From positions 203,886 through 267,885 of the forward strand of contig NZ_SORF01000002.1 in the NCBI RefSeq assembly GCF_004366795.1: a DNA stretch of 64,000 bases. The letters are read 5' to 3'. Shown piece by piece: positions 373-9,260 of the stretch; position 1 is the first letter of the stretch; each line of letters starts with the position of its first letter. The position numbers were made by a program, and so were the translations under genes. The notes under the pieces are model-generated. The model searched no databases. It was given only the letters and a program-made list of their open reading frames with translations, and had not been told where the DNA came from. The DNA comes from Alicyclobacillus sacchari (GTDB taxonomy: Bacteria; Bacillota; Bacilli; Alicyclobacillales; Alicyclobacillaceae).

Positions 373-1212
373 TCATATCCTTTGTTCCAGCCGTGCCACG
401 GTCACCAGTTCCAATACCCGTTGTGCCGTTTCCTCAATGGCGCGATCCGTAACGTCGATCAGCGGGCATCCGAGGTCACGTACGACGGTTTCCGCGTACA
501 ACAACTCTTCTTCGATCCGCCGCCTATCCGCATACTGGGCGTGCATGGGCAAGCCCATGTGACGCAGACGTTCACTCCGGATGCGGATCATGTTGTCCAC
601 GCGCATGGTAAAACCCACAATGCGGTCTCGAGAAATTTGCCGTAACTCGTCTGGAAGTCGCACTTCCGGTACCAAGGGTAAATTCGCGACACGCAAACCT
701 TTGTGTGCAAGAAAGACACTCACAGGTGTCTTCGATGTGCGAGACACGCCAAGTAAAACGATGTCCGCGTTTAACAATGCTCGCGGATCGCGCCCGTCAT
801 CCGCTTTCACCGCAAATTCGATAGCATCCACGCGCCTGAAATATTCGTCGTTGAGCGTATGCAGGAGCCCTGGCTGGCGCTTTGGGTGATCGTGAAACGT
901 ATCGATAAATGCCTGCATCATCGGTCCCATGATATCGACGACGCGAACGCCACGGCGAATGCTCTCCACTTTCATCATTTCGCGGAGCTCGGGCTGAACG
1001 AGCGTATATGCGATGAAGCCGCCGGACCGTTCAGCGGTTTCGACGACATCCCGAATTTCGTCCTCCGTCCGCAATTGTGCACATCGCACAATTTGCACGC
1101 GCCGCATATCAAATTGGTGGATGGCCGCCTGAACGACCGCTTCCGCCGTATCGCCAAGAGAATCGGAACACACATAAATGGTCTGCGCATCGGTACGCCG
1201 GGCCTCGCTCAT
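373..1212 (-). CDS. Pyruvate phosphate dikinase regulatory protein (PSRP/DUF299 family)
   Basis: Bifunctional serine/threonine kinase and Pi-dependent phosphorylase that inactivates and reactivates pyruvate phosphate dikinase by ADP-dependent phosphorylation of a threonine next to the catalytic histidine. About 279 residues, the family's usual size. The start IYVCSDSLGDTAEAVV and the P-loop-like GVSRTSKTP near residues 155-163 are family signatures. The frame is open to an ATG at 1230, but GGGGGA lies just inside that ATG, so 1212 (or 1218) is the better start. It overlaps the end of the CcpN-like gene, so translation is probably coupled. In Bacillus subtilis the same pair (ccpN-yqfL) is adjacent. 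Here the dikinase itself is first gene of the operon, which makes PPDK the obvious target. Confidence 0.9.
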   Translation of the reverse strand: MSEARRTDAQTIYVCSDSLGDTAEAVVQAAIHQFDMRRVQIVRCAQLRTEDEIRDVVETAERSGGFIAYTLVQPELREMMKVESIRRGVRVVDIMGPMMQAFIDTFHDHPKRQPGLLHTLNDEYFRRVDAIEFAVKADDGRDPRALLNADIVLLGVSRTSKTPVSVFLAHKGLRVANLPLVPEVRLPDELRQISRDRIVGFTMRVDNMIRIRSERLRHMGLPMHAQYADRRRIEEELLYAETVVRDLGCPLIDVTDRAIEETAQRVLELVTVARLEQRI

Positions 1213-1961
1213 CGCCATGTTGTCCCCCATTCTGCGACCAACCGTGCCAAGGTGGTCTTCGTAATACGCCCCACGACGAGCGGGCGCACATCCTCCCTAT
1301 CTTGTTTATGTACCACAGGCAGACTATCCACCTTGTATTCGATCATCCGCCTTGCGGCATCGACCACCCGATCTTCTGGCGTCACGGTCTCTATGTTCGG
1401 GTAACGCGTCATCACCATGCCAACCGGGAGTGTGGTGGCATTCGCATTGCCCAGTGTGAACTTAAGCATGTCTTTACGCGATACAACACCCTGAAGCCCA
1501 CCGTCGTCATCGGCCACAATGAGCCCTCCGACGTCTTCCAAAAACATCGTAATCACCGCGTCGTGCACCGTTGTCGTCTCCCTGACAATGACGGGCAACG
1601 ACTGGACGTCTGCGACGCGCAGGGTGTCCCACGGCGGTTTTTCGGCATCTGGACTCTCTTCGCCGAGAAAGTAGCCGACGCGCGGCTTCGCGTCGAGCTT
1701 CCCGAGCATGACGAGCAAGGACAAGTCGGATCGCAAGGTTGGGCGGCTGACACCGAGCATCTCTGCGAGTTGGTCGCCCGTTATCGGCTGGTGCGTTCGC
1801 ACGAGCCGCAAGATTTGCTGTTGACGAGGTGTGAGTTCGATGTATCTCAGCTCCTCCAACAACGTACGGCCTGGCACACGATCTGCCAGGCCGTCCAAGA
1901 TGGCCTCTTCGCCACCATTGTACACCATGTCTATCTGTCTTGATGCAAGCAAATTCCTCAA
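1209..1961 (-). CDS. CcpN-like transcriptional repressor (HTH plus two CBS domains)
   Basis: Predicted cytoplasmic repressor related to CcpN (YqzB), which represses gluconeogenic genes during growth on sugar. A winged helix at about residues 41-95 (LTPRQQQILRLV, ITGDQLAEMLGVSRPTLRSD, KPRVGYFLG) is followed by two CBS domains that probably sense nucleotides (LRVADVQSLPVIV through GVVSRKDMLKF; VMTRYPNIETVTPEDRVVDAARRM through LPVV). The longest frame starts with a TTG at 1961, four bases after the ppdK stop, and gives about 40 residues more than CcpN. A strong GGAGGAG at 1851-1857 sits just before the point where homology begins, but no ATG, GTG or TTG follows at normal spacing. The true start is therefore unresolved (1961, the ATG at 1928, or a rare codon near 1841). 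Operon position between ppdK and its regulator predicts control of that module. Confidence 0.85.
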   Translation of the reverse strand: MRNLLASRQIDMVYNGGEEAILDGLADRVPGRTLLEELRYIELTPRQQQILRLVRTHQPITGDQLAEMLGVSRPTLRSDLSLLVMLGKLDAKPRVGYFLGEESPDAEKPPWDTLRVADVQSLPVIVRETTTVHDAVITMFLEDVGGLIVADDDGGLQGVVSRKDMLKFTLGNANATTLPVGMVMTRYPNIETVTPEDRVVDAARRMIEYKVDSLPVVHKQDREDVRPLVVGRITKTTLARLVAEWGTTWR

Positions 1962-1964
1962 ACG

Positions 1965-4655
1965 TTAGCCGATCCGCTTGCGCTCCAAGGCCGCTTGTGC
2001 TGCCGCAATCCGTGCCACCGGGATGCGAAACGGCGAACAACTCACATAGTCGAGTCCAAGTTCCTCACAGAATGCAATCGACGCCGGGTCTCCTCCGTGT
2101 TCACCGCAGACGCCCGTCTTCAAATCGGGGCGGCGCGACTTACCCGACTCGACCGCCCATTGTATCAACCGTCCGACCCCGCGCGTGTCCAGCGTTTCAA
2201 ACGGATTTGAAGAGAGGATATCGCGATCGAAATAAACGTTGAGGAACTTGCCTTCAGCGTCGTCACGACTAAATGCGAATGTCATCTGTGTCAAATCGTT
2301 CGTTCCAAACGAGAAAAACGACGCATCTTCCGCAATTTCGTCCGCTGTTAACGCTGCCCGCGGCACCTCGATCATTGTTCCGATCCGAAAATCGACTGCC
2401 ACGCCAAGCTGCTCCATCACGGCCTGCCCCACCTGCTCCATGCGTTCGCGCAAGAGGCGCAGCTCCTTAGTGGAGCCGATGAGCGGAAGCATGATCTCCA
2501 ATTCGACATGGATGCCGCTTTTCATGGCTTGTGCCGCAGCGGTTACGATGGCTTCCATCTGCATGTCGTAAATCTCGGGATAGACGATGCCAAGGCGGGA
2601 ACCGCGCAGCCCCATCATGGGATTCGCTTCGCGCAGATAGCGCGCTTGGCGCAACAGTTGTTCGACTTTGTCGATTTCATTTGTGCTCGCTCCCTGTGTA
2701 CGCAACTGCTCGAGCCTTGTAGCCAATTCTTCTTCCCGCGGCAAAAACTCATGTAAGGGCGGATCGAGCAGGCGGATCGTGACAGGCAATCCGTCCATGG
2801 TGCGGAAAATCTCGGTGAAATCAGCGACTTGCAGCGGCAGCAGTTCGTCCAGCGCAGCCTTCCGCTCACTACTTTGGGTTGCCAGAATCATGCGCTGGAC
2901 GAGCGGCACCCGAGCAGGTGATAAAAACATATGTTCCGTCCGGCAGAGGCCGATGCCTTCCGCGCCAAATTCGCGCGCACGCCGCGCATCTTCAGGCGTA
3001 TCGGCATTCGCCCGAACGCGCAGGCGCCGAACTTGGTCGGCGATGGCGAGCAATTCGTTGAGTTCTTGGGCCATTTGCGCTTCGGCGAGCGTCCCCTGGC
3101 CGATGAACACCGTGCCGGTGCCGCCGTCGATCGAAACCCAATCGCCTTCCTGAAGCGTCGCCTCGCCGACACACACACTTCGTTGTGCCAACTCGATCCG
3201 CAAATCGTCGCAGCCGCAGACAGCGGGCTTGCCGATACCGCGCGCGACGACCGCCGCATGACTGGTCATCCCACCGTGCATCGTCACGACGCCTTCGGCT
3301 GCCAGCACACCATGAATGTCCTCGGGCGTCGTCTCCGGCCTCACCAAAATCACCCGCTCCCCGCGCGCTGCCCAATGAACGGCCGTATCGGCATCGAAGA
3401 CGATCCGCCCAATGGCTGCTCCGGGTGATGCTGGCAGGCCCTTTGTCAGAACCGTCAGCGAAGTGGTCGATTCCAACCGCCTGTACAGCAGTTGCCGCAA
3501 ATGTTGTGCGTCGACGCGCAGTAAAGCTTCTTGCGGTTGAATGAGTCCTTCGTGCACCATGTCGATCGCGATTTTGACTGCCGCCTGTGCCGTACGCTTG
3601 CCATTCCGCGTCTGAAGCACATATAACCTGCCACGCTCGACCGTGAACTCGACATCCTGCATGTCGCGAAACCGAGTTTCCAACTGATGTGCGACCTTGC
3701 TCAGAGCGCGGTAAACGCCGGGCATCTTCACTGCCAACTCCGCTATGGGTTGGGGTGTGCGAGTGCCCGCGACAACCTCTTCACCTTGCGCGTTGACAAG
3801 AAATTCACCAAATAGCGCGCGTTCGCCAGTGGCAGGGTGGCGCGTGAAGATCACGCCTGTTCCGCTGTCCTCGCCCATATTGCCGAAGACCATCGCTTGC
3901 ACGTTGACAGCGGTACCAAGATCCTCTGCAATCCCATGCAGCTTGTGGTATACGATCGCACGCTGGCTTCGCCACGAGCGAAACACCGCCTCAATGGCAA
4001 GTCGCAATTGCGTGTGCACATCCTGCGGGAACGGTTCACCGACGCGATCGGCATAAACGCGCAAGCATGTGGCGACAACTTCCTTCCAAGCGTCTGCCGA
4101 CAAATCGAGATCGCGTTTGCAATCATGGCGCGCTTTCGCACTCTGCAACACGTGTTCGAACGGATCGAGTGGTACCTGAAATACTACATTGGCAAACATT
4201 TGTACGAGCCGACGATAGGAGTCGTAGGCAAACGCAGGGTTTTGTGATTGATGCGCCAAAGCCCGAACGGTCGAATCGTTCAAGCCAAGATTGAGAATGG
4301 TGTCCATCATGCCTGGCATCGACACGGGCGCCCCTGAGCGCACAGAGACCAAGAGGGGTTGAAACGCATCGCCAAACCGCTTGCCCGCCGCTCGTTCGAG
4401 GCGAAGCATCGCCATGGAGACGTCGCCGAGTAGAAAGTCCGGCAAGCGTTCGCCTTGTTCCCAAAATGCCTGGCAGGCTTCGGTCGTGATTGTAAAGCCA
4501 GGGGGAACGGGCAGTCCCCACTGCACCATCTGCGCGAGATTGGCACCTTTGCCTCCCAGCCTTGCGCGCTCTCCGGGATCAGCCTGATCGAACGCATATA
4601 CCCAAATGGGATGCGCTTTCTGTTCTTGTGCGGCGACTTCGTCAATTCTCCCCAT
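1965..4655 (-). CDS. ppdK: Pyruvate, phosphate dikinase
   Basis: Reversibly converts pyruvate, ATP and Pi to phosphoenolpyruvate, AMP and PPi in the cytoplasm. Full length at 896 residues. The N-terminal ATP-grasp region shows LGGKGANLAQM and GVIFTRHPATGE. The central phosphohistidine domain has GGMTSHAAVVARG with predicted catalytic His466 and regulatory Thr464. The C-terminal PEP/pyruvate barrel includes SFGTNDLTQMTF and the active-site Cys in GVCGEHGGDP. The ATG at 4655 is preceded by GGAGGGCAGG. It is first in an operon with a CcpN-like repressor and the dedicated PPDK kinase/phosphorylase, and is divergent from glpX, which points to gluconeogenic use (PEP from pyruvate). Confidence 0.97.
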   Translation of the reverse strand: MGRIDEVAAQEQKAHPIWVYAFDQADPGERARLGGKGANLAQMVQWGLPVPPGFTITTEACQAFWEQGERLPDFLLGDVSMAMLRLERAAGKRFGDAFQPLLVSVRSGAPVSMPGMMDTILNLGLNDSTVRALAHQSQNPAFAYDSYRRLVQMFANVVFQVPLDPFEHVLQSAKARHDCKRDLDLSADAWKEVVATCLRVYADRVGEPFPQDVHTQLRLAIEAVFRSWRSQRAIVYHKLHGIAEDLGTAVNVQAMVFGNMGEDSGTGVIFTRHPATGERALFGEFLVNAQGEEVVAGTRTPQPIAELAVKMPGVYRALSKVAHQLETRFRDMQDVEFTVERGRLYVLQTRNGKRTAQAAVKIAIDMVHEGLIQPQEALLRVDAQHLRQLLYRRLESTTSLTVLTKGLPASPGAAIGRIVFDADTAVHWAARGERVILVRPETTPEDIHGVLAAEGVVTMHGGMTSHAAVVARGIGKPAVCGCDDLRIELAQRSVCVGEATLQEGDWVSIDGGTGTVFIGQGTLAEAQMAQELNELLAIADQVRRLRVRANADTPEDARRAREFGAEGIGLCRTEHMFLSPARVPLVQRMILATQSSERKAALDELLPLQVADFTEIFRTMDGLPVTIRLLDPPLHEFLPREEELATRLEQLRTQGASTNEIDKVEQLLRQARYLREANPMMGLRGSRLGIVYPEIYDMQMEAIVTAAAQAMKSGIHVELEIMLPLIGSTKELRLLRERMEQVGQAVMEQLGVAVDFRIGTMIEVPRAALTADEIAEDASFFSFGTNDLTQMTFAFSRDDAEGKFLNVYFDRDILSSNPFETLDTRGVGRLIQWAVESGKSRRPDLKTGVCGEHGGDPASIAFCEELGLDYVSCSPFRIPVARIAAAQAALERKRIG

Positions 4656-4745
4656 GACCTGCCCTCCATCTCGTTCAGCATGGAATTCTAAAGTGCATGA
4701 ATGGTTTGATACTATAGAGATAACACACTTTTAATTATGACGCAA

Positions 4746-4774
4746 TATTTACGATGTATCGTTGATTTTGACAA
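4746..4774 (-). promoter_or_regulatory. Candidate sigma-A promoter of the ppdK operon
   Basis: On the minus strand TTGTCA (4774-4769) is followed after 17 bases by TAAATA (4751-4746), about 90 bases upstream of the ppdK start. The -35 overlaps that of the opposite promoter. A sequence resembling a CcpN box as I recall its consensus (TRTGHYATAYW) lies just downstream: TGTGTTATCTC, 4727-4717, nine of eleven positions. Prediction from motif only. Confidence 0.45.
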
Positions 4775-4796
4775 CATTATGATGTCATAATAGAGA
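4768..4796 (+). promoter_or_regulatory. Candidate glpX promoter with palindromic operator in the spacer
   Basis: TTGACA at 4768-4773 is followed after 17 bases by a weak -10, TAGAGA (4791-4796). The spacer ends in TTATGATGTCATAA (4777-4790), two perfect 6-base arms around TG, a typical position for a repressor site. The rest of the 4656-4890 gap is AT-rich with no further gene. Confidence 0.4.
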
Positions 4797-4890
4797 ACAA
4801 AAGTATATCTCGTTTCTTAGGAACATTGTTCTTGTGCTGATGAGTAGTCAAAGCCCGCTGGGGTATAGCGTTCGGGAGGGAAATCGGAGC

Positions 4891-5859
4891 ATGGAGAGAG
4901 AATTGGCACTCGAGTTGGTTCGCGTAACGGAGGCCGCGGCGCTCGCATCCTGCGCATGGATTGGGCGTGGCCACAGCGACGGCGCTGACGGAGCTGCTAC
5001 CACAGCCATCCGGGAGATGTTGAAAACGGTGAATATTCGCGGCGTCGTGGTCATCGGCGAGGGCGAAATGGACGAAGCACCGATGCTTGCCCAAGGCGAA
5101 GAGGTGGGAAATGGACAAGGCCCGGCCGTCGACGTCGCCGTCGATCCGATAGAGGGAACCACGATGTTGGCGAAAGCCCTACCCAACGCCATGTCGGTCG
5201 CTGCCATCGCACCGCGAGGTCAACTGTTGGCTGCACCCGATATGTATATGGAAAAACTGGCTTGCGGGCCACGCCTTCGCGGCCTTCTTTCGCTCGACGC
5301 CCCTTTGTCCGTGACTCTGCAACAAGCCGCACAAGCGCTCGGAAAACCACTTCAAGAACTAACCGTTGCGATACTCGAGCGGGATCGGCATCGCGCACAT
5401 ATCGAACTGGCTCGCCGCCTTGGCGTGCGCGTCAAACTGCTTGCTGGCGGCGATGTGATTGGCGCCATTGCGACGGCGTTGCCGCGAGGCGGCACGGACC
5501 TGTATATCGGTTCCGGCGGTGCCCCAGAGGGCGTGCTTGCGGCGGTTGCGCTTCGTTGCCTCGGCGGCGACTTTCAAGGCCGCCTAGTTGTGCAGACACC
5601 AAACCAGCGCGAGCGATGCTTGCAGCTGGGCATCGAAGATCCCGCACGAACTTTGTCATTGCACGATCTCGCAGGACGTGATGACGCCATTTTCGCCGCG
5701 ACTGGCATTACCGATGGCGATTGGCTCAACGGCGTTACGCGCGAAGGCGACTACCTGCACACGCATTCGGTCGTGCTGCGCGCAGGCACTGGCACCATTC
5801 GCCATGTGAATGCAACCCATCATCGCCCTCTCCACGTTCGCCTAGCACAATTGGGATGA
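4891..5859 (+). CDS. glpX: Fructose-1,6-bisphosphatase class II
   Basis: Hydrolyses fructose 1,6-bisphosphate to fructose 6-phosphate, the committed step of gluconeogenesis; Mg/Mn-dependent and cytoplasmic. 322 residues, normal for GlpX. Family motifs are GEGEMDEAPML for metal and phosphate binding, VDPIEGTT of the inositol-phosphatase fold, and IGSGGAPEGVLAA near the substrate phosphate site. The frame is open further upstream, but the family start MERELALELVRVTEAAAL and the GGGAGGG site at 4874-4880 select the ATG at 4891. Divergent from the PPDK operon with overlapping promoter elements, which suggests joint regulation. Confidence 0.95.
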   Translation: MERELALELVRVTEAAALASCAWIGRGHSDGADGAATTAIREMLKTVNIRGVVVIGEGEMDEAPMLAQGEEVGNGQGPAVDVAVDPIEGTTMLAKALPNAMSVAAIAPRGQLLAAPDMYMEKLACGPRLRGLLSLDAPLSVTLQQAAQALGKPLQELTVAILERDRHRAHIELARRLGVRVKLLAGGDVIGAIATALPRGGTDLYIGSGGAPEGVLAAVALRCLGGDFQGRLVVQTPNQRERCLQLGIEDPARTLSLHDLAGRDDAIFAATGITDGDWLNGVTREGDYLHTHSVVLRAGTGTIRHVNATHHRPLHVRLAQLG

Positions 5860-5921: not shown

Positions 5922-6791
5922 TCAACACGACATGTCCTTTGCCAGCAGGTGGATGGCATCCCGCGGTGAGTCATGACATGCCTTAGGCCACGCCTTTTGC
6001 CGCTCCGCCGACCAGTGCAAGCGTTTTGCAGCGCCCTCTGCCACAAGCGGTTCGACACCTGCGCTTGCCAACGTCCTTGCTGCTTCATCCATCTCGTGCG
6101 CCCGCCGTTGACCGTGCTGCATGTTGCGCTCGACGAGATACCATGCCAGCGAAGAAAGTTCGTGTTGTGGAAAGGATGCGTCAAGGGAAGCCAACATGTC
6201 ACCGGTGACCCCGTACATCTCCGCGGCGACAAGAGCCTCGATAAACAGGGCCTCAAGACCTTTGAGCACGGTACTGCGGCACATCTTCAAAGCCGCGCTC
6301 GAGCCAATCTCCCCGGCCAATACCCGAATGTTGCACCCATATGGGGTAAGCGCTGCCGCAAACGCCTCTGCCCCCGGCCCGTCTGTGACCATTGGTACAA
6401 GATGGCGATGTGGTCCAACGGCCGACATCACAGCGACTGAGGCATATAGCGCCTTCGGCTGTGCTTCGTTGACTAATTTGCCGATTTCGCGTTTTACCGC
6501 TGGTGAACAGGAATTGAGATCGGCATAAACTTGTCGGGGACTCAGGTAGGGCGCGACCGTGCGTGCCACATCGGCCGCAACGCTTGCGGTTACCATGGAC
6601 AACACCACATCCGCCTGTGTACAGACGTCTCTAGGACTGTCGACAAGCTGGACACGAGCCGCCCGTGCACGCTCCTCCATCGCGATGCTTCGCATCGCAT
6701 CATAGGCGATCATATTGGCAAGACCTGTTTCGCTTAGTCCAAGCGCGATGGTCGATGCCGCTTCACCAAAACCGATGAAACCAAGCCGCAT
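5922..6791 (-). CDS. NAD(P)-binding dehydrogenase, 6PGDH-like with DUF1932 C-terminal domain
   Basis: 289 residues. An N-terminal Rossmann fold opens with GFIGFGEAASTIALGL and has the SMVTASVAADVA loop of the 3-hydroxyisobutyrate/6-phosphogluconate dehydrogenase superfamily. The C-terminal half matches the DUF1932 (phosphogluconate dehydrogenase C-terminal-like) pattern, with KMCRSTVLKGLEALFIEAL in the place of the catalytic-lysine helix. GGGAGGG precedes the ATG at 6791, three bases after the ligK stop, so it is the last gene of the GntR-controlled operon. The substrate is unknown. From context it may oxidise a hydroxy-muconate semialdehyde or hemiacetal, the step done by the unrelated LigC in the protocatechuate 4,5 pathway, or reduce a keto acid product. 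That role is inference. Confidence 0.8.
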   Translation of the reverse strand: MRLGFIGFGEAASTIALGLSETGLANMIAYDAMRSIAMEERARAARVQLVDSPRDVCTQADVVLSMVTASVAADVARTVAPYLSPRQVYADLNSCSPAVKREIGKLVNEAQPKALYASVAVMSAVGPHRHLVPMVTDGPGAEAFAAALTPYGCNIRVLAGEIGSSAALKMCRSTVLKGLEALFIEALVAAEMYGVTGDMLASLDASFPQHELSSLAWYLVERNMQHGQRRAHEMDEAARTLASAGVEPLVAEGAAKRLHWSAERQKAWPKACHDSPRDAIHLLAKDMSC

Positions 6792-6794
6792 GGC

Positions 6795-7490
6795 TCAGCC
6801 CTCCCATTCGGATTGAGAGACCCAGATCACGCCCATCGCTTTTAGCTTTTCGCGCAGTCCGTAAATATCCAGTCCTAATTCGCGACTCTGCAGACGGGTG
6901 CGCGTCCTTTCCTCCTTTTCAATCCGTGCCTGTGCCAAGAGAGCAATCTCTGTCGCGCGTTCCTGCGGTACGCACACGACCCCGTCGGCATCCGCTACGA
7001 TGATATCACCAGGGCGCACCGTGACTCCTGCACAGACGATAGGCACGTTTACGCAACCAGGGGTCGCCTTCACCGTTCCCTGTGCACTGATCGCACGCGA
7101 CCACACCGGGAACTGTAACGCAGCCAATTCCTCCACGTCCCGCACACCTGCTTCCGTGATGAGCCCGGTGACGCCATGCGCTTTCATCGAAGTGGCGAGC
7201 AGTTCGCCAAACATGCCATCTGTCGACGGTGACGTGGTAGTGACGACGACAATGTCCCCCGGTTCGCAGACGTCGAGCGACGCATGAATCATTAAGTTGT
7301 CGCCAGGATGGCTTAAAACGGTGACCGCTGCGCCAAACGCTTTTGCGCCAGGATAAATTGGACGCATGTACGGGAACATGAGGCCACTCCGGCCCATGGC
7401 CTCGTGTAATGTCGCAACTGAATAGCTTCCAATCTGTTCAACAAGATCTTTGTTCGGTCGTCGGACGTCCGTTACAATGACAGGCTTCAT
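6795..7490 (-). CDS. ligK: 4-carboxy-4-hydroxy-2-oxoadipate aldolase-like protein (RraA/LigK/GalC family)
   Basis: Class II, divalent-metal aldolase predicted to split 4-carboxy-4-hydroxy-2-oxoadipate into pyruvate and oxaloacetate, and possibly 4-hydroxy-4-methyl-2-oxoglutarate. 231 residues, the LigK size. Family features are YSVATLHEAMGR near the N-terminus, PGDNLMIHASLD, the GVRDVEEL loop with the Arg-Asp pair used for substrate and metal binding, and DIIVADADGVVCVP. The ATG at 7490 overlaps the galB stop as ATGA, so the two are translationally coupled, as expected for consecutive enzymes. RraA-like regulators share the fold, but the LigK-type C-terminal helix and the galB neighbour favour the aldolase. 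Confidence 0.85.
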   Translation of the reverse strand: MKPVIVTDVRRPNKDLVEQIGSYSVATLHEAMGRSGLMFPYMRPIYPGAKAFGAAVTVLSHPGDNLMIHASLDVCEPGDIVVVTTTSPSTDGMFGELLATSMKAHGVTGLITEAGVRDVEELAALQFPVWSRAISAQGTVKATPGCVNVPIVCAGVTVRPGDIIVADADGVVCVPQERATEIALLAQARIEKEERTRTRLQSRELGLDIYGLREKLKAMGVIWVSQSEWEG

Positions 7491-8203
7491 ACAAACGCAC
7501 CTCCGACCGATGGGAAAACGCGTTGATAGGCCTCCGCGTACACGATGTCCTGCCCGGAATTGCGCCCCGCTTGCATGCCACGACGTTTCGCCACGTCGGT
7601 GTAGTACATCCACAGATGTTCTTGCGCTTGCATGCATTCCATAGCCTGCCGCTTTTTTTCGAAGACCGAGGTGATATCGAGGAGTAGATCGACGCGAAAC
7701 TGACACTGTTCCGGTTGATGCGGTTCAAAGGAGTACAATTGCGGTGCACCGATGGGTGGATGCTCCGATGGATATCCGTGCGCCTGTGCCAGAATGCGTG
7801 CTTCGCGAACCAGTTCCGCCGTGCGTGGGTGATCGGCGTTGTAGGGATCGACGAATGTGTGTGTCAGAATAATGTTCGGGCGATTTTCGCGAATTTCCTG
7901 AACCAAGTCGTTGCGAAGTTCCGGTGTAACATCGATGGGGTAATCGCCCACATCAAAGAACCGGATTTCTGCGCCCAAGATTGCCGCAGCCTGTTCCGCT
8001 TCGAAACGGCGCACAGATTTGATGTCCTCCAGACTCTTCCCTTCTTTCCACAGGCGGGCCGACTCGCCGCGCTCGCCAAAGGTCAAACACAGCACCCTCA
8101 CTTTCCAGCCCTGTGCACTGTGCAGCGCAATGGCACCACCTGACCGCCACACGAAATCTGCTGCATGGGCACTGACGACCAATAACGTTCCGGGTTGTGA
8201 CAT
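7487..8203 (-). CDS. galB: 4-oxalomesaconate hydratase, PIG-L family (GalB type)
   Basis: Hydrates 4-oxalomesaconate to 4-carboxy-4-hydroxy-2-oxoadipate in gallate and protocatechuate 4,5-type degradation. 238 residues. It resembles Pseudomonas putida GalB throughout: LLVVSAHAADFVWRSGGAIA, LTFGERGESARLW, FFDVGDYP, YSFEPHQPEQCQFR, LDITSVFEKK and the end NIVYAE/DIVYAEAYQRVFP. PIG-L enzymes bind a metal through the N-terminal AH-x-D region. AAGGAGG lies nine bases before the ATG at 8203; an upstream ATG at 8209 is too close to it. GalB is unrelated to LigJ, which does the same reaction in sphingomonads. Coupled to ligK by ATGA. Confidence 0.9.
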   Translation of the reverse strand: MSQPGTLLVVSAHAADFVWRSGGAIALHSAQGWKVRVLCLTFGERGESARLWKEGKSLEDIKSVRRFEAEQAAAILGAEIRFFDVGDYPIDVTPELRNDLVQEIRENRPNIILTHTFVDPYNADHPRTAELVREARILAQAHGYPSEHPPIGAPQLYSFEPHQPEQCQFRVDLLLDITSVFEKKRQAMECMQAQEHLWMYYTDVAKRRGMQAGRNSGQDIVYAEAYQRVFPSVGGAFV

Positions 8204-8263
8204 ATCCATTGTCCTCCTTCCACGCACTCAAAGCGGGAAAATAAGTGGGAAAGTTTTCTGGCC

Positions 8264-9169
8264 CTACAATGAAATCAAGCGGGCCGGATTGTCGACGAGC
8301 ATTTTGCGAACATCCGCTTCAGGAACAGATGCAGCGAGTAGTCTTGCGGCGTAATCCATGAGACCGTCCACGATGCCAGGATTCGTTTTTTGCCCAAGGT
8401 CTGTCGATAGCAACGTACGTTCCGGACCCACCGCATGGATTGCATCAAACAGCTGTTTCCAGTCACACTTGCTGGTGTAGAACGTCGTGTAGCAATGCTC
8501 GATGACTGCTCCCATCTCAGCAAGACGCACCTGATCTGCGATGGAAAGCGCCTGCGAAGGGAATAAGGCATGCGTGACAATCACGCGATCGACGCCAATT
8601 TCGCGAGCTGTTTCGACGACGGCGAAGATCTCATCACGAGCCAAGTGACCAGTGGCGAGTACCATTTTGTATTGGCGGATGAGTTCAAGGCACGCCTTCA
8701 CATCGTCGCGCACTTGTCCACGTTCATCGAGAACGGAAAGCGACGTGGGCTGGATGCCTTGCGCCCGTACCTCTTCCTGAATGCGCGCCCAGAACGGCAG
8801 ATGTGCGGCACCGCGTGCCTTTTGCTTCTCTGGGCTTTCATTGCTTGCATCGACGGTCGGCAACCAGACAATGCGTGCACCAGCACGCCCGGCGATATCG
8901 ACAGCGACCGGGTTGAAACCGCCAACCGTGTGATTCAGCGCGATCGTGCCGATGACGTCGACTCCCGGTACGACGGCGGACACGACTTTGGCTCGCTCAA
9001 CCGTTGGAAAATAGTGCGACTTTAGTGCAAAACCGCGCCAACCGACGGTGCTAAATTGGTGCGCCAGCGTCACGTCGTCGACGCTGCGCTCCACCAAGTC
9101 TGGCCAGACATGAACGTGTAAGTCGTAGGCCCCCGACAACAAGCGGATGATGTGTTCGGACTGGGACAT
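8264..9169 (-). CDS. DUF6282-type metal-dependent hydrolase (amidohydrolase-like)
   Basis: 301 residues with amidohydrolase-like metal motifs: YDLHVHVWPD near residue 16, LKSHYFP, LATGHLARDE, IVTHALFP and STDLGQKTNPG toward the end. It ends with DNPARLISL, a common closing motif in amidohydrolases. I recognise the family (DUF6282) but know of no characterised function. First gene of the operon with galB, ligK and the DUF1932 dehydrogenase. A GntR-type palindrome lies 50-60 bases upstream of the ATG at 9169. By position it could open the lactone 2-pyrone-4,6-dicarboxylate, the LigI step, or act as a tautomerase or decarboxylase. Inference only. Confidence 0.75.
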   Translation of the reverse strand: MSQSEHIIRLLSGAYDLHVHVWPDLVERSVDDVTLAHQFSTVGWRGFALKSHYFPTVERAKVVSAVVPGVDVIGTIALNHTVGGFNPVAVDIAGRAGARIVWLPTVDASNESPEKQKARGAAHLPFWARIQEEVRAQGIQPTSLSVLDERGQVRDDVKACLELIRQYKMVLATGHLARDEIFAVVETAREIGVDRVIVTHALFPSQALSIADQVRLAEMGAVIEHCYTTFYTSKCDWKQLFDAIHAVGPERTLLSTDLGQKTNPGIVDGLMDYAARLLAASVPEADVRKMLVDNPARLISL

Positions 9170-9219
9170 CGGATGAAACCGCCCTTCCTGAGAAATCGAA
9201 ATGCACTTTTGGCGACAAT

Positions 9220-9231
9220 ATTGTAGACAAT
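9220..9231. promoter_or_regulatory. GntR-type operator upstream of the DUF6282-galB-ligK operon
   Basis: ATTGTAGACAAT is a perfect 5-2-5 inverted repeat of the TTGT-n-ACAA type bound by FadR/FCD GntR regulators. On the minus strand it contains TACAAT, a good -10, so a bound repressor would cover the promoter. Similar boxes lie upstream of the dioxygenase gene at 10976-11003. Confidence 0.6.
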
Positions 9232-9260
9232 CCAAGCTGTGACGAAGAACACTTTCGAGG

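Follow-up and report, generated by a model that had tools for sequence, protein, structure and literature searches.

The window analysed here, a stretch of 64,000 nucleotides from contig NZ_SORF01000002.1 of Alicyclobacillus sacchari, carries between positions 373 and 5859 four genes that could act together as a gluconeogenesis unit. A preliminary description of the sequence had placed a PPDK gene, a CcpN-like gene and a PSRP gene in one cluster divergent from glpX, and this was borne out by Pfam and NCBIfam matches and by the strands, ppdK, ccpN and the PSRP gene lying on the minus strand and glpX on the plus strand. ppdK (1965..4655) codes for pyruvate phosphate dikinase and scores 1293 bits against TIGR01828 (cut-off 843); its closest structures are 9pzl and 1kbl (E about 1e-293), and it contains both the histidine of the T464-S465-H466 motif and C850 in CGEHGG. 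Thr464, which had been named as the residue to be modified, is correctly the threonine of this TSH motif (464-466). The PSRP gene (373..1230) codes for a PPDK/phosphoenolpyruvate (PEP) synthase regulatory kinase-pyrophosphorylase of the YqfL family, with scores above the cut-offs of PF03618 (318 bits) and NF003742 (302 bits, cut-off 225). A P-loop-like stretch, GVSRTSKTP, was read from residue 161, and among solved structures the protein matches chloroplast PDRP (5d0n, E 4e-45); as PpsR of PEP synthase (NF049928) it reached 135.5 bits, under the cut-off of 350. The best NCBIfam match of the frame at 1209-1961 is CcpN NF053704 (244 bits, cut-off 260). From a proposed AUC start at 1841 this frame would give a repressor of 210 amino acids (1209..1841), which falls in a divergent subclade of the CcpN tree. 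It has the CcpN architecture of a helix-turn-helix domain (PF08279) with two CBS stretches (PF00571), the CBS part matches the YqzB CBS pair structure 3fv6 (E 2e-32), and the PSRP gene adjoins it, the two frames overlapping by 22 nt. glpX (4891..5859) encodes a class II fructose-1,6-bisphosphatase of 322 amino acids (PF03320 426 bits; TIGR00330 374 bits for the longer open reading frame, cut-off 259.3; structure 1ni9, E 3e-86), whose start is most likely ATG 4891 behind GGGAGG rather than GTG 4834.

The four-gene layout was also found in eight of the 14 other genomes of the genus (L032-L039), and since it is kept in these it is more than chance. The three-gene set stands in another order in G001, G004, G007, G008 and G012, and G005 gave neither a PSRP nor a PPDK match. 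When the eight loci of the same layout were aligned with the window, 59 of the 235 positions of the ppdK-glpX gap (4656-4890) were invariant across the nine genomes, and two elements stand out. Site A, AATTATGACGCAA (4733..4745), is invariant in 12 of 13 positions and overlaps TTGCGT, a -35-like hexamer of ppdK on the minus strand. Site B, ATTATGATGTCATAAT (4776..4791), is a 16-base palindrome that overlaps CATAAT, a -10-like hexamer of glpX on the plus strand; 18 nt ahead of CATAAT lies TTGATT (4762..4767, plus strand), -35-like, with TTGA invariant. These promoter-like elements were called by eye. The sole invariant run of 12 in the gap, TGATGTCATAAT (4780-4791), falls in site B, and 0 of 20000 column shuffles reached that length; the next invariant stretch, TGACGCAA (4738-4745), falls in site A. 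From this we infer that sites A and B are putative CcpN operators. Gene order was compared by tblastn across 194 loci, with query genes that were chosen by eye and whose identity Pfam later confirmed. Nine of these loci, L032-L039 and L040, have TGATGTCATAA upstream of module genes, and the other 185 lack it there; L041 carries CGATGTCATAA. The CcpN proteins of L040 and L041 belong to the subclade of the window's CcpN, and altered residues of the recognition helix are common to them: the helix reads RPTLRSDL in the window, KPTIRFDL in L040 and L041, RPTIRSDL in L188 and RATLRPDL in most others listed.

The set from which this layout is built is widespread. A phylum sample of 199 genomes was searched with cut-offs of E<=1e-25 for CcpN, E<=1e-150 for PPDK and E<=1e-20 for PSRP, and CcpN was found in 118, PPDK in 176 and PSRP in 130. 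A PSRP gene is found no more than 5 kb from ccpN and in the same orientation in 114 of the 118 CcpN genomes. Ten of the 118 have no PPDK, and in 18 the PPDK matches were not listed, so that the position is missing; in the remaining 90, ccpN, PSRP and ppdK occur together (within 5 kb) in 82. The order is ccpN-PSRP-ppdK in 79 of these, PSRP-ccpN-ppdK in two (G079 and G157, in both of which another PSRP follows ccpN) and ppdK-ccpN-PSRP in one, the window. Among the eight genomes without the set, ppdK lies elsewhere in G084, G085, G103, G119, G121 and G142, G152 is just beyond the limit with genes spanning about 5.5 kb, and G166 has ccpN beside ppdK and no PSRP. In a sample of 41 genomes from the window's taxonomic order, PPDK exceeded the cut-off in 19 and lies beside ccpN and PSRP in 18, the ppdK of G017 being on another contig. 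The statement in the available part of PMC8100219 that DUF299 occurs in all bacteria with PPDK was not supported by the phylum sample, where PSRP was found in 119 of the 176 PPDK genomes and 57 had no PSRP match. A second PSRP occurs in six phylum genomes (L212-L217); it is highly divergent, standing beyond a branch of 2.69, and over about 6.8 kb no match to ppdK, ccpN or dnaG came up.

An exact copy of the box TRTGHYATAYW, which we take to be the B. subtilis CcpN consensus, lies no more than 150 nt ahead of ccpN in 21 of 25 phylum sets (1.2% in shuffled controls), in 18 of 80 named Bacillus-type pairs (shuffled 2.1%) and in one of 14 others (1.8%), and it also precedes the detached ppdK of G017. 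Because it precedes ccpN in many phylum sets, CcpN probably controls the ccpN-PSRP-ppdK set broadly. If sites A and B are CcpN sites, the window's CcpN subclade would use changed operators. Elsewhere in the window, matches to the box with one mismatch are near chance (20 versus 13.4 expected). A genome scan gave 11 matches to site B with at most one mismatch, against two for a reversed-pattern control, and 41 matches to site A with at most two mismatches, against 24 for the control. Seven of the match loci were read, and no convincing further CcpN site was found among them. In L227 (a perfect site B), L230, L235, L239 and L265 the site is inside an open frame, and in L231, where it lies between frames before a transporter-like open reading frame, it was judged unconvincing. 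L234, on contig C10 of G000 at about 48.5 kb and spanning also the second C10 match, was rejected as a repeat array; the array looks CRISPR-like by eye, and its repeat resembles the operator sequence.

Our data indicate, with a probability of about 0.7, that the four genes form a gluconeogenesis unit in which CcpN would repress ppdK and glpX through the two gap sites and PSRP would switch PPDK. The analysis shows what the four genes code for, that their layout and the sites are conserved, the synteny and the tree grouping; the proposal goes on from these to operon transcription, repression, the sugar response, phosphorylation and the direction of flux, which are all predicted. The ppdK-ccpN-PSRP operon would make CcpN at a low level, and CcpN would bind both sites and shut both promoters as long as sugar abounds. 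Once sugar runs short, the cell would express ppdK and glpX together, so that PPDK could convert pyruvate to PEP and GlpX could carry out the irreversible step that comes later. The operon message would also yield PSRP, which would phosphorylate Thr464 of PPDK with ADP and remove the phosphate with Pi, so that PPDK would be switched by energy charge as well. The metabolic setting is consistent with this. The window genome has one pyruvate kinase, it gave no ATP-PEP carboxykinase match, and no PEP-synthase-like match came up in the PPDK search, whose other two matches lie in one EI-like frame of 597 amino acids; because of these three findings PPDK is likely to be the PEP maker of the genome. 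Beyond glpX, genes for DUF1932, LigK-type aldolase, PIG-L and DUF6282 proteins (5922-9235) are kept in all eight relatives of the same layout. The LigK-type reaction yields pyruvate and oxaloacetate. The cluster resembles the final part of a route for aromatic ring cleavage with these two products, which would feed PPDK.

Several observations weigh against the gluconeogenesis unit. The CcpN-like protein stays below the equivalog cut-off of NF053704, the consensus box is missing from the 4656-4890 gap even when one mismatch is allowed, and in the relatives L042-L064 it is rare (two of 23 exact, shuffled 0.9%; six of 23 with one mismatch). The absence of an ATP-PEP carboxykinase match has its own limit, as the GTP-dependent enzyme was not searched for. 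TACAAT (1917..1922, minus strand; read by eye from the nine-locus alignment, coordinates counted by hand) in the ppdK-ccpN gap is conserved in all nine loci and is possibly the -10 of an internal promoter for ccpN and PSRP; such a promoter, if present, could partly uncouple ccpN from site A. PPDK can also run toward pyruvate, a pyruvate kinase match at 1e-60 is missing in 16 of the 199 phylum genomes, and some of these, G093 and G132, carry PPDK and PSRP. It could be argued from these two genomes that PPDK works mainly toward pyruvate and ATP in a pyrophosphate-linked glycolysis, which CcpN and PSRP would tune in place of gluconeogenesis; we consider this quite improbable for the window, as its genome has a pyruvate kinase and no ATP-PEP carboxykinase match and its ppdK shares the upstream gap with glpX, a gluconeogenic enzyme. 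Somewhat less improbable, though still unlikely, is that the gap elements belong to another regulator or are promoter elements only, and that CcpN acts elsewhere. Both sites overlap -35- and -10-like hexamers, which would be conserved in any case, and the missing box points the same way; on the other hand a 16-base palindrome is longer than a -10, and TGATGTCATAA recurs in L040, which has another gene order and a CcpN of the same subclade, and in 0 of the other 185 loci.

The third alternative concerns ancestry, namely that the window is a direct survivor of an ancestral ccpN-yqfL-ppdK operon which lost ppdK in Bacillus. A conserved locus, era-recO-(glyQS)-ccpN-PSRP-[ppdK]-dnaG-rpoD, does exist. 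Eighty named loci were compared, mostly from Bacillaceae and Caryophanaceae; a Bacillus-type first sequence had 579 confirmed matches, of which these are the 80 that scored best, and they thus represent one side of the phylum. In all 80, dnaG-rpoD follow ccpN-PSRP and no ppdK was seen; upstream, era and recO are present in 74, recO alone in one, and neither in five or six (short flank or other genes). In G016, G020 and G021 of the window's family (gene labels Pfam-checked) ppdK stands at this locus between PSRP and dnaG, and in 21 of 30 phylum loci with 1.5-kb flanks glyS or recO precedes ccpN and ppdK follows PSRP. As the Bacillus-type pair sits at the locus that holds ppdK in these three genomes, ppdK was plausibly the ancestral partner, lost from the shared locus in Bacillus-type lineages; the opposite course, a gain of ppdK elsewhere, seems less likely. 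The survey of ccpN-yqfL neighbourhoods proposed in the preliminary description thus gave ppdK in none of the 80 Bacillus-type loci and all three genes together in 82 of 90 phylum genomes, and its idea of an ancestral logic behind the ccpN-yqfL pair fits the shared locus and the phylum sets. It does not hold for the window copy itself, which differs in order, place and trees. The usual order is ccpN-PSRP-ppdK (79 of 82), and era, recO, dnaG and rpoD were not found within 11-16 kb in any of the eight relatives of the same layout. The trees were quick ones, with support from the Shimodaira-Hasegawa-like approximate likelihood ratio test (SH-aLRT) only and several long-branched rows; L192 and L193 were treated in the PSRP and CcpN trees as ppdK-linked through a tblastn match, the PPDK search listing none there. 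In the PSRP tree (104 rows) the six rows of the window clade join G062 (99), a genome with the order ccpN-PSRP-glpX and no PPDK. In the CcpN tree (55 rows) the window clade joins G007, G012 and G062 (99), apart from the family group that holds the dnaG-locus copies (99). A direct survivor is therefore improbable, even though genomes with both CcpN and PPDK usually have the three-gene set and the Bacillus-type pair occupies the syntenic locus. In the PPDK tree the window clade sits on a long branch beside the remainder of its family and order (97); because these trees place the clade differently, the regulators and the PPDK of the window may have different histories. Judged from its order, unique among the 82, its place away from dnaG and its grouping with G062, the window copy is a derived, moved and reordered member of the widespread set with its own CcpN subclade. 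The gluconeogenesis unit would accordingly derive from the ccpN-PSRP-ppdK set often found between recO/glyS and dnaG, which here would have moved, changed order and gained its own operators. Near the set, glpX also occurs in L063 and L222-L224, and a glyceraldehyde-3-phosphate dehydrogenase gene (PF02800 in L040) is divergent at the set in L040, L041 and L060.

For YqfL in species which lack PPDK another target has already been proposed in print: according to the available part of PMC9009071 the TSH motif of PykA would be the substrate of a DUF299 kinase, with YqfL as a candidate and a replication role "under investigation". The PPDK, PSRP and pyruvate kinase searches of the 41 order genomes were cross-read by eye (counting as a tail that of G037, whose gene is split across two frames). 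Two genomes (G005, G019) have neither PPDK nor a pyruvate kinase tail, and they have no PSRP. Nine have PPDK only, and in all nine the ppdK operon holds the single PSRP of the genome. Twenty have the tail only, 19 with one PSRP and G040 (73% complete) with none, and ten have both, with two PSRPs in six and one in four. TSH was found in all eight tails read of the 30. In the phylum sample, nine of the 11 PSRP genomes without PPDK have a tail, G062 has none and G214 is not assignable. One may tentatively suggest, although we hold it to be rather doubtful, that PSRP/YqfL is a two-target switch at the PEP-pyruvate node, acting on PPDK and on the TSH-bearing PEPut tail of pyruvate kinase; lineages with both targets would often keep two PSRPs, one beside ppdK and one beside dnaG, and the window clade would have lost the tail and the dnaG-locus PSRP together while keeping the ppdK-linked pair. 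Against this, PSRP is missing in seven of 120 phylum genomes with a seen tail and present in ten of 42 without (37 of the 199 being unassigned, their matches not listed), shared ancestry could account for the co-occurrence, and B. subtilis PykA T537A caused no growth defect according to the available part of PMC11834443.

The window's ccpN most likely starts at ATC 1841 (AUC), giving the protein of 210 amino acids, as GGAGGAG (1851..1857, minus strand), a Shine-Dalgarno sequence, was read 9 nt ahead of it; TTG codons lie farther upstream, by eye without a clear Shine-Dalgarno. Across 147 loci, with a few genomes represented by two, the first conserved ccpN codon was ATC in 88, ATA in 29, ATG in 14, GTG, TTG and ATT in five each and CTG in one, and in 19 of them there is no ATG, GTG or TTG between this codon and the upstream stop. 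Among 74 further phylum loci, 11 were not located by motif and the other 63 gave ATC 18, ATT 18, ATG 12, GTG 10, ATA 4 and TTG 1, a usual start codon being absent in 14 of the 63. In a large part of the phylum ccpN appears to start with AUC, AUA or AUU, preceded by a strong Shine-Dalgarno. A 2026 report (PMC13009471, in its available part) describes, by Ribo-Ret, initiation of S. aureus ccpN at AUA, at about 10% of AUG in poor medium and up to 30% in rich medium, with a non-AUG start conserved as far as B. subtilis. The S. aureus start resembles that of the window in being non-AUG behind a strong Shine-Dalgarno and differs in that it is AUA and shown by Ribo-Ret, whereas AUC in the window is predicted and the non-AUG starts across many Bacillota were read in silico; our data are thus an in silico extension of the published start.

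Set against known systems, the module belongs to a widespread one that is partly published, and it differs by its changed gene order. B. subtilis CcpN (YqzB) and YqfL are homologues of the two regulators; in that species ccpN presumably adjoins yqfL, the CcpN targets lie elsewhere in the genome, and the repressor has ATP and ADP as effectors. Unlike the window genome, the B. subtilis control row has no PPDK above the cut-off, in agreement with the absence stated in the preliminary description. Repression of gapB and pckA by B. subtilis CcpN is cited in the available part of PMC3616900, in which CcpN is also predicted to control ppdK, ccpN and fbp in Lactobacillales (Ravcheev 2013). The link between CcpN, ppdK and a bisphosphatase is therefore not new: in that regulon as in the window CcpN would stand over ppdK, itself and a fructose bisphosphatase, the Lactobacillales enzyme being named fbp whereas in the window glpX shares one gap with ppdK. 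In Enterococcus faecalis the same three genes are adjacent (EF1024, ppdK; EF1025, CcpN homologue; EF1026, PPPase-domain), with PSRP after ccpN and, unlike the window, ppdK divergent from ccpN; the available part of PMC7028823 treats EF1025 for DivIVA and cell shape and not for gluconeogenesis. For Listeria monocytogenes, control of PPDK by the DUF299 protein of that species is reported (Tolentino 2013, cited in the available part of PMC8100219), which resembles the switch proposed for the window. Both this report and the Lactobacillales prediction speak for the gluconeogenesis unit. Partial texts further report that duf299 is often near peps or ppdk (PMC2817694) and that Listeria ccpN/yqfL are under sigma-L (PMC8066629).

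The single short gap with its two sites offers a compact test of the repression of ppdK and a bisphosphatase together by CcpN. The new leads are the AUC start of ccpN and the PSRP copies, whose number per genome within the order goes with the presence of PPDK and of a pyruvate kinase tail bearing TSH; this agreement between copies and TSH targets predicts which enzyme each copy modifies. The Bacillus ccpN-yqfL pair looks like a remnant left after the loss of ppdK, the same locus holding ppdK in other Bacillota, and the two-target reading, if true, would answer what YqfL does without PPDK.

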